This document shows positions 44,680 through 51,712 of a stretch of DNA of 64,000 nt, piece after piece. The DNA comes from Desulfosudis oleivorans (lineage in GTDB: Bacteria; Desulfobacterota; Desulfobacteria; Desulfobacterales; SURF-7). Location: contig DYJC01000003.1 in assembly GCA_020723305.1 (NCBI GenBank), positions 124,584 to 188,583 of the forward strand, read 5' to 3'. Position numbers and translations under genes: made by a program. Position 1 is the first letter of the stretch; each line of letters begins with the position of its first letter. The notes beneath the pieces are model-generated. The model ran no database searches. It saw only the letters and a list, made by a program, of their open reading frames with translations, and was not told where the DNA came from.

Positions 44680-46290
44680 ATGAATTCTGCATCGGATCGA
44701 AATATTCAGGAGGCACAGCGTGAAATCACGAAGATATTTCAGGGATTGTCCAGGGAGATTCCCATTGTCCTGTTTTCAAAACCAGGTCTCAACGATATGT
44801 TTTGTGAGTATGCCAAACAATCGATCCGCTTTTTTCGTCAGACAACGGATAAGATTGTTTTACGGGAATTTGGTCTGGATCATGAAAAAGCCAAAGAACA
44901 TAAGGTTACGCAATCCCCCACCATCCTTTTTGATCCGGACAACTATGCGATCCGCTGGCTAGGTGCTCCGCTGGGTGAGGAAGCCAGACTTTTTCTGGAA
45001 GCCATTCTTCTCCTGGGTGAACGTAAAAGCGGCTTGAGTGATGATTCAAAAAAAATCCTGAAACGGATTGATTCCCCCCGGCATATCAAGGTTTTCATCA
45101 GCAGCTCATGCCCCTATTGTCCGCAGCAGGCAATGAACGCCCTGAAAGCAGCCATTGAAAAACCAAAGTTGATATCGGTTGAACTGGTGGATATTCAGGC
45201 CAATCCGGAGCTTGCTGAAAAATATGCTGCGCAATCCGTACCCCAGACCTATGCCAACGAGATCCTGATTGCCAAAGGCGCTCAGCCCGAAGAGCTGTTC
45301 ATGCTTTCTCTGGAAAAAATGGAGCAGCAGACTATTTTCATTCCGGAAAGTGATGCAAAAGAGGTTACAACGGATCTCCTGATCGTGGGCGGCGGGCCTG
45401 CGGGTCTGACAGCCGGAATTTACGCAGCCCGAAGCGGACTCAACACCGTGGTCGTCGAGAGGGGTGTACTTGGCGGGCAGGTGGCAACAACTCCTGTAGT
45501 GGAGAATTATCCGGGTTTGAAACAGGTCGGCGGAAAAACCCTGGTGGATATCATGGTGACCCACGCCATGGAGTATGTACAGATTTTTCCAGGCGAAGAA
45601 GTTCTTGAAATCAGTCCTGGAGAACCACTGATCGTCAAGACCAACAGGCGGAAGTTCATCACCCGCTCCCTGCTGCTGGCAACCGGCGCCACTCACCGGA
45701 AATTGGGAATCCGGGGAGAAGAAAGATTGTCCGGCCATGGAGTAAGTTATTGCAGCACCTGCGATGGGCCGCTTTTTAAGGACAAAAAAGTGATTCTTGT
45801 AGGTGGCGGGAACAGCGCGGTCACAGAAGCCCTTCATCTTCACAATATTGGTGTGGAGGTGACGCTGGTTCACCGGAGTAATGAATTTCGGGCTCAGCGT
45901 GTTCTGATCGAAAGGCTTTCCGAATATGGAATACCGGTGCGATTGAATACGGAAGTCAAAGATATTATCGGTGATCACCAGGTAGAGGAGGTTGTTCTGT
46001 ATAATAACCAGACCAATGAAACCTCTGCTGTTCCTGCGGAAGGAGTGTTTATCGCCATTGGATATGATCCTGAGGTCGGGCTTGCCGGTAAGGCCGGACT
46101 GGTATTAACCCCGGACGGTTTTATCAGGAATGACAACTACCGTACTAACGTGCCCGGCATTTATGTGGCGGGAGATGTTGTGGGAGGATTCAAACAGATC
46201 GTGACCGCTGCAGGGCAGGGGGCGGGGGCTGCCATGGTGATTTTTGAAGATTTGATGAATCCTTTCTGGAAGCAGCAGAAAAAAGAGTAG
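44680..46290 (+). CDS. AhpF/thioredoxin reductase-like flavoprotein with N-terminal redoxin domain
   Basis: A 536-residue flavoprotein of AhpF layout. Residues 1-220 are a double thioredoxin fold with the active pair C144-PYC147 (SSCPYCPQQ). The C-terminal ~310 are thioredoxin reductase: FAD motif IVGGGPAGLTAGIYAARSG, redox-active C358-STC361 (YCSTCDGPLF), NAD(P) motif VILVGGGNSAVTEAL and GIYVAGDVVGGFKQI. Lacking a separate ahpC here, it may reduce the glutaredoxin-like or other redoxins as well as a peroxiredoxin encoded elsewhere. Same strand and spacing as its neighbours in the redox/TCA block. Confidence 0.9.
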   Translation: MNSASDRNIQEAQREITKIFQGLSREIPIVLFSKPGLNDMFCEYAKQSIRFFRQTTDKIVLREFGLDHEKAKEHKVTQSPTILFDPDNYAIRWLGAPLGEEARLFLEAILLLGERKSGLSDDSKKILKRIDSPRHIKVFISSSCPYCPQQAMNALKAAIEKPKLISVELVDIQANPELAEKYAAQSVPQTYANEILIAKGAQPEELFMLSLEKMEQQTIFIPESDAKEVTTDLLIVGGGPAGLTAGIYAARSGLNTVVVERGVLGGQVATTPVVENYPGLKQVGGKTLVDIMVTHAMEYVQIFPGEEVLEISPGEPLIVKTNRRKFITRSLLLATGATHRKLGIRGEERLSGHGVSYCSTCDGPLFKDKKVILVGGGNSAVTEALHLHNIGVEVTLVHRSNEFRAQRVLIERLSEYGIPVRLNTEVKDIIGDHQVEEVVLYNNQTNETSAVPAEGVFIAIGYDPEVGLAGKAGLVLTPDGFIRNDNYRTNVPGIYVAGDVVGGFKQIVTAAGQGAGAAMVIFEDLMNPFWKQQKKE

Positions 46291-51190: not shown

Positions 51191-51354
51191 ACTCCCTCCA
51201 ATAACTTTGTATTAACTTAACCCATTTGTGTGTATTCGCGGTTGCCGGGTAGTTAATGAAAACCGTCCCAATATACCAGAATACAATGCAAACCGTTATT
51301 TTCCAAAGCATTGGCGAGTGCACTAAAAACAGATTTTAACACAGCCGTTTAAAA

Positions 51355-51387
51355 TAAAAAAACCGTCGGCACAGGACCGGCGGTTTT
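51355..51387 (-). terminator. intrinsic terminator in the kimA leader (riboswitch expression platform)
   Basis: Read on the minus strand, AACCGCCGG pairs with CCGACGGTT around CCTGTG, followed by TTTTTTATTTT: a stable hairpin with a U-tract. It lies between the riboswitch aptamer and the kimA start, about 165 bases before the ATG. In the known ydaO mechanism, ligand binding favours termination before the transporter gene. Confidence 0.8.
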
Positions 51388-51404
51388 CAAAGCGCTGACC
51401 AATG

Positions 51405-51535
51405 CACTCCCACTTGTCTACGAGGTTAGCTGACGGGCTCGGGCTTGGAAGTGCCCTATCCATGAAAAGAATACGCCCCAAAAACTTGGGTCCCCCGCAT
51501 CCGGTTTATTCACAAACCGGATTTCGACTGCAATA
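51405..51535 (-). ncRNA. c-di-AMP (ydaO/yuaA) riboswitch aptamer
   Basis: On the minus strand, in order: GGGGGACCCAAGTTTTTGGGG, then AGGGCACTTCCAAGCCCGAGC, then CCGTCAGCTAACCTCGTAGAC. These are the conserved blocks of the ydaO-yuaA aptamer, including the near-invariant GTCAGCTAACCTCGTAG segment, in correct order and spacing. A closing helix (AATCCGG...CCGGAT) lies just upstream at about 51498-51523. It is followed by the terminator and by a KimA-type K+ transporter, the classic target. Confidence 0.88.
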
Positions 51536-51712
51536 TGTTTAATTCCGGCCAAGTATAGAATATTGTGTGGAGGTGTCAAGAGAAATCTGGGAATACGTAT
51601 CATCAGACACGACTTCACCAGTGTTTCAGAATGATCCACTGCATATCGATGATAAAAGATTTTCTTTGGGTTCATTGGTTTATCAATACCAGTGTTGAAA
51701 ATTCCTCAGGTA

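Follow-up and report, generated by a model that had tools for sequence, protein, structure and literature searches.

The best described counterparts of the locus reported here are the ydaO (kimA) and ktrAB riboswitches of Bacillus subtilis. They share the RNA class and the predicted OFF control with our locus, and a K+ importer of the same KimA family lies downstream of the ydaO (kimA) leader; in the available sections of the source, this riboswitch-KimA pairing of Bacillus is an OFF switch (PMC5573677). In the known class, two c-di-AMP molecules are bound per aptamer, as stated in the accessible part of PMC9481103. According to excerpts of PMC6488665, the Bacillus thuringiensis kdpFABC leader has an intrinsic terminator after its aptamer, 143 bp upstream of the start codon, and c-di-AMP promotes termination there, but this riboswitch controls kdp, not kimA. 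The closest relative in sequence (L153) is a locus of a Desulfobacteraceae MAG (DAIEHU010000059.1), which has the same promoter, aptamer and terminator and a KimA protein with 91% identity. However, its P1 strands are GCC/GGC, it is without the 146-nt stretch before the ribosome-binding site, and it has different neighbouring genes. Among titles and the beginnings of abstracts, with most subscription papers beyond reach, we saw no experimental study of the riboswitch-kimA pairing in the Desulfobacterota. The part of PMC3766115 that was available names ydaO-yuaA in a table and a list and holds nothing on its targets in this phylum.

We analysed a stretch of 64,000 nucleotides from Desulfosudis oleivorans, which is called the window below. 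The riboswitch-kimA pair on its minus strand is genuine and of a known kind, already known from Bacillus. It differs from that of B. subtilis in the Gram-negative host and in two KimA substitutions (Q581 to E and R587 to Q), and the cyclase of the genome differs from the Firmicutes arrangement by having YbbR repeats fused in one chain. Reading along the minus strand, the promoter is followed directly by the aptamer, the hairpin with its U-tract, about 155 nt of leader, GGAGGG and ATG (Table 1). Our main reading, to which we give a probability of about 0.86, is that a c-di-AMP riboswitch of the ydaO/yuaA class represses kimA transcription by termination and that low c-di-AMP permits K+ uptake.

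Table 1. Positions of the features of the riboswitch-kimA locus in the window, and of the cyclase gene elsewhere in the genome
Feature	Position	Strand	Basis
Sigma70-type promoter: TTGACA (51579-51574), 16-nt spacer, TATACT (51557-51552)	51552..51579	-	11/12 consensus
c-di-AMP riboswitch aptamer (RF00379)	51400..51539	-	Rfam match and covariation
P1 5' strand GUC	51526..51528	-	pairs with 51418-51416 GAC
P1 3' strand GAC	51416..51418	-	covariation in A2 and A3
Pseudoknot loop strand CUUCCA	51446..51451	-	pairs with 51412-51407
Pseudoknot tail strand UGGGAG	51407..51412	-	pairs with 51451-51446
Intrinsic terminator: hairpin 51388-51358 and U-tract 51362-51356 (seven U)	51356..51388	-	fold and leaders of relatives
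146-nt stretch, terminator to ribosome-binding site	51205..51350	-	blastn break against L153
Shine-Dalgarno GGAGGG	51194..51199	-	read from sequence
kimA-like K+ transporter, 660 aa	49208..51190	-	match to PDB 6s3k/8b70/8b71 KimA
CdaA_N, DAC and YbbR fusion, 475 aa	L001 769-2196 (own genome, contig C19)		domain search

The Rfam model RF00379 matched the leader over its full length (model positions 1-134) with 83.6 bits, against a curated gathering score of 38 bits. The E-value of 5.4e-18 rules out a chance match as the source of the hit. The preliminary description had read conserved ydaO/yuaA blocks on this minus-strand leader; they are present, with GTCAGCTAACCTCGTAG at 51434-51418, and the conserved core of the class (CAGCTAAC and others) was found together with the consensus helices, including P1. 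The extent proposed there, 51355-51535, holds at its start, which includes the terminator, and ends 4 nt short of the Rfam match. A second copy of RF00379 was not found in the 5.4-Mb draft genome to which the window belongs (47 contigs, 97.87% complete).

In an alignment of 38 aptamers of the phylum (A2), 97.0% of the cells were paired in the consensus structure, while slid controls of the same structure gave 32-50%. Changes on both sides occurred at 18 of the 28 consensus pairs, and none of 500 shuffles showed covariation as high. The leader itself (51545-51340) folded better than its shuffles, with a z value of -2.34 and 2 of 200 shuffles as good. The middle pair of P1 is C-G in 37 of the 38 sequences of A2 and U-A in the window alone, and judged from the alignment this is a compensated change. 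A second alignment (A3; 29 mostly kimA-type leaders, 28 distinct) contains a U-G intermediate at this pair in L135, and one exception, row L120, breaks the first pair. The RF00379 class has a pseudoknot of a loop with the 3' tail. Here it is a helix of six pairs; 96.4% of the cells were paired in the 28 distinct sequences, three pairs changed on both sides, and pairs were broken in six cells. On the whole, the covariation, P1 and the pseudoknot indicate that selection acts on the fold.

The promoter region holds two promoter-like sites against a mean of 1.0 in shuffles, so that the evidence for this promoter is weak when taken alone. A -35 box of the TTGAC type was seen by eye at most 60 nt upstream in 18 of 26 riboswitch-kimA leaders, two of which (L061 and L180) look identical. 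The terminator hairpin folds at -13.9 kcal/mol. On the single sequence it is not stronger than chance, as 55 of 200 composition shuffles reached the best-hairpin value of -11.5 kcal/mol, and a pattern scanner did not report it. The support for the terminator of the window is therefore comparative. A hairpin with a U-run stands at the same place in all 17 kimA leaders chosen, including that of L153, and these 17 were picked by eye from the 26 because a U-run hairpin was visible. The hairpin of the window is the weakest of them, with -13.4 kcal/mol in this comparison and the others ranging from -15.2 to -29.5 kcal/mol. The hairpin and U-tract that had been read as an intrinsic terminator after the aptamer are present, with support from relatives.

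The nine leaders left out differ among themselves, which indicates that the expression platform varies within the family. By eye, two (L149 and L177) have a U-run after a possible hairpin, no U-run hairpin was seen in L126, L128, L135, L140 and the look-alikes L061/L180, and in L067 a hairpin would cover the Shine-Dalgarno sequence GGAGG. A family-wide antiterminator was not identified when seven leaders were folded without the 3' arm of the terminator and 17 leaders were subjected to a shuffled-arm test; some leaders yielded candidates and others none. The terminator 5' arm paired better with the P1 3' strand than a shuffled arm did in only five of the 17, with 2/60 shuffles as high in the window, 0/60 in L040, 1/60 in L041, and 3/60 each in L043 and L044. 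The other 12 were negative, among them L153, where the predicted pairing was 0.00. The 146-nt stretch is absent from L153. It was rejected as a repeat element because it is present in a single copy in the genome, and its pairing with the pseudoknot tail was also rejected, since 123 of 500 shuffles were as strong. A fluoride riboswitch was observed at 4480-4544 of L061, about 1 kb beyond another kimA gene.

The transporter had been described as KimA-like, and this agrees with the structural matches: among solved structures it matched B. subtilis KimA (E 1.1e-55, residues 14-494) and no other protein at E up to 0.001, and a profile comparison with KimA gave E 3.1e-69. As a member of the KimA family (KUP/APC superfamily), it may be a high-affinity K+/H+ symporter. 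The KimA residues named in the accessible part of PMC10284832 were read off from sequence and profile alignments to the solved KimA. The K+ site is completely kept, D36, Y43, T230 and Y377 corresponding to D50, Y57, T246 and Y397 of the window protein. Y118 and N237, which transmit inhibition according to the same part of that source, are kept as Y128 and N253. In the c-di-AMP pocket, R337, V457, H579 and N580 are kept (R357, V480, H633 and N634), L461 and S582 are replaced by the similar I484 and T636, Q581 is changed to E635, and P479 and V506 fall in an unaligned stretch. Most close relatives have His at the position of R357, with an invariant Arg one residue later. R587 of the cooperativity path corresponds to Q641. 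Since most of the comparable pocket residues are kept, the protein is probably inhibited by c-di-AMP too. Dual control, on the RNA and on the protein, would accordingly be likely, if not certain.

Discussions of c-di-AMP mostly treat it as a messenger of Gram-positive bacteria. Firmicutes have cdaA and cdaR as adjacent genes. A single protein with a DAC domain, a diadenylate cyclase of the CdaA type, was found in the genome of the window (E 4.2e-37, above the Pfam cut-off). The two findings that the preliminary description had named as refuting, no Rfam hit above threshold and no diadenylate cyclase gene, were thus both checked for and did not occur. The CdaA_N domain passes its cut-off only just (24.2 against 23.8 bits), while DAC (125.3 against 27) and YbbR (54.7 against 22.3) score well above theirs. 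Among solved structures, the nearest relatives of the protein are diadenylate cyclases: the 17 PDB chains matched are such enzymes or contain a DAC domain, and one bears no other name than hypothetical membrane spanning protein. Many of the DAC open frames listed for the order are similar in length (about 480 aa). PgpH and DHH-DHHA1 proteins can cleave c-di-AMP, and candidate phosphodiesterases of both kinds are encoded: an 806-aa PgpH-like protein (7TMR-HDED/7TM/HD) and a 324-aa DHH-DHHA1 protein, which comes closest to the NrnA model without reaching its cut-off. In the available part of PMC7288161, DAC genes are described as frequent in Deltaproteobacteria. The genome is predicted to encode the synthesis of c-di-AMP, candidates for its breakdown, and two receptors for it, an RNA and, probably, a protein.

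We computed the aptamer and its structure, the terminator hairpin in related leaders, the identity of the transporter, and the cyclase and candidate phosphodiesterase genes; that the RNA binds c-di-AMP and works as an OFF switch, that the system responds to K+ and that the protein is inhibited are what we infer. In the proposed mechanism, a membrane CdaA-type cyclase with YbbR repeats in the same polypeptide would make c-di-AMP. High K+ would lead to high c-di-AMP, and the aptamer would then be closed, with P1 and the pseudoknot formed. The closed aptamer would allow the GC hairpin with the U-tract to form, and RNA polymerase would stop about 165 nt before the start codon. At low c-di-AMP, the leader would be read through and KimA would be made. 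The KimA protein would be inhibited by the same messenger, giving control at two levels. An OFF switch, in which high c-di-AMP terminates transcription, is most likely by analogy. This direction rests on the Bacillus precedents and not on folding, because an antiterminator was predicted only in the window and four relatives.

A genuine aptamer could instead act mainly on translation or RNA stability, the weak hairpin being a remnant. The terminator of the window, weakest of 17 and not better than shuffles, would fit this, as would the five leaders or look-alike pairs without a U-run hairpin (L126, L128, L135, L140 and L061/L180) and the hairpin over GGAGG in L067. However, all 17 chosen leaders, that of the closest relative included, have a hairpin and U-run in the same position, and the ribosome-binding site of the window is separated from the terminator by about 155 nt, with the 146-nt stretch in between, and is far from the aptamer. 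We consider control of this kind unlikely.

Alternatively, the riboswitch may have arrived with kimA by horizontal transfer and no longer respond, so that the leader would be degenerate. The finding of riboswitch and KimA in none of the six sampled members of the genus and family, and the 146-nt stretch, missing in L153, that stands between terminator and start, are compatible with such a history. However, the P1 change to U-A from C-G is compensated, and the outer pair of the terminator stem is G-C in L153 and A-U in the window, both sides having changed. Compensated changes of P1 and of the terminator stem are what selection on the fold leaves, and they argue against degeneration. In addition, the Rfam match of the aptamer covers the complete model, with a score twice that of the cut-off. 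A degenerate leader is very improbable, and repression of kimA by termination remains the preferred reading.

A quick tree of 90 KimA proteins (LG+G4, SH-aLRT support only) groups the window KimA with that of L153 (support 100), followed by that of a Desulfonema limicola MAG (support 99). In the next larger clade (support 93) all nine rows have the riboswitch, and over the whole tree its presence requires at least 12 changes. The assignment of the DNA to the Desulfobacterota in the preliminary description is supported by named KimA relatives in Desulfobacteraceae and Geobacteraceae, and by a KimA in a genome of the same order (G410) that is identical to one of a Desulfonema limicola MAG. Six further genomes of the genus (G474 and G553) and family (G424, G507, G532 and G569) were sampled, and KimA and the riboswitch were found in none of them, though five, all except G424, have a DAC domain. 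This suggests that riboswitch and kimA move together as a single cassette. In the window, the end of the aconitase gene (49014) and a D-Ala ligase-like gene (55030) are 6 kb apart and flank the riboswitch, kimA, an MFS gene and an aldehyde dehydrogenase gene. A clean empty site was looked for in the congeners and rejected. In the congener G553 the corresponding interval is 1.6 kb, and blastn (E up to 1e-10) matched none of these four there. The G474 contig ends 20 nt past the end of the MFS gene (51701 of the window), so that the exact site is not visible. L153 carries the riboswitch-kimA pair beside other genes than the window. Elsewhere in the window, a 536-aa protein (44680-46290, plus strand) joins a protein-disulfide-oxidoreductase-like part to a thioredoxin-reductase-like part.

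The neighbourhood and the patchy spread fit a joint gain of riboswitch and kimA. The alternative may be that the six genomes lost the pair, or that there are gaps in the drafts (G474 is 89% complete). We tentatively suggest, at somewhat less than even odds, that the riboswitch-kimA pair is a portable, self-contained module passed on horizontally between anaerobes that already make c-di-AMP. Such a module would be connected to the signalling of a new host immediately, since the messenger that its RNA reads is already present there.

The riboswitch is fairly common in the phylum and is no oddity there. Of 395 genomes sampled from the phylum, 52 have an RF00379 hit (51 above the cut-off), as do 10 of 194 from the order, and these counts are lower bounds because the stricter filters of Infernal were used in both runs. 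The preliminary description therefore overrated how unusual the system is; in addition, c-di-AMP riboswitches upstream of K+ transporter genes have been predicted in Proteobacteria among other phyla, as printed in the available excerpts of PMC6488665. With a limit of E 1e-20, 63 of the 395 phylum genomes and 8 of the 194 order genomes have a KimA relative, and a DAC domain is present in 144 of the 194. The riboswitch lies upstream at 7 of 29 KimA loci of other phylum genomes (L042 has it downstream only) and at 18 of 80 named-record loci, kept from 558 (L108 downstream only). All 18 of these named records are MAGs, mostly deltaproteobacterial, with one from Spirochaetes and one from Phycisphaerales. 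No riboswitch was seen upstream at 62 of the 80 and 22 of the 29 loci, the flanking DNA being short for some, and KimA without the riboswitch is thus the commoner state. A copy directly downstream of kimA was observed in L043 (3598-3721) and L141 (7125-7263), where it is the second, and in L108 (7118-7263) and L042 (3618-3763), where only one was found; that of L141 precedes a second kimA-like stretch.

An open frame downstream was obtained for 51 of 52 riboswitch loci taken from the genome of the window and from the phylum and order surveys; L079 was left out because none was found, and L014, L025 and L028 were probably assigned the wrong one. The largest group is a Kup-like cluster (n=18), of which one member, L010, was tested as PF02705, followed by KimA (n=9, own included), a cluster of five from four genomes of one genus, whose tested member L069 has PKD and fn3 domains, and KdpA (n=3, two tested). 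The riboswitch lies upstream of kdpA in L016 (G374), L017 (G192) and L076 (G560); KdpA was confirmed for L017 and L076 and assigned by similarity for L016. Riboswitch-controlled kdp is described as seemingly restricted to Bacillales in the accessible part of PMC6488665. In L004 (G227), a riboswitch at 545-680 precedes a glutamate 2,3-aminomutase gene at 764-2050 (TIGR04368, 716.5 bits, cut-off 650), possibly for a beta-amino-acid osmolyte.

Two genomes of one genus, in the same order as the window genome, hold several riboswitch hits before varied genes: eight in G531 (L069, L077, L081, L082, L084, L086, L088 and L089, the last below the cut-off) and six in G506 (L073, L078, L080, L083, L085 and L087). 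In G531, they precede a cytochrome c-type protein with a MopE-like motif (L084), PKD and FG-GAP repeat proteins (L069 and L082), a glucosyl-3-phosphoglycerate synthase-like protein below the cut-off of that model (L081), and TrkH (L089). At L088 1-113, a c-di-AMP riboswitch of 71.8 bits, its 5' end cut by the contig start, is followed after about 300 nt by a NiFe hydrogenase small subunit gene (408-1307; TIGR00391, E 1.7e-93). This arrangement could tie c-di-AMP to hydrogen metabolism.

The interpretation that c-di-AMP signalling would control K+ uptake in a Gram-negative anaerobe is supported by this locus, and it would extend a well-tested Bacillus control circuit to the Desulfobacterota. 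With a predicted synthase, breakdown candidates, an RNA receptor and a probable protein receptor, a single genome would serve as a compact test case. Since the pair is spread patchily over genomes that mostly keep the cyclase, it would allow one to ask how a regulatory RNA moves with its gene.
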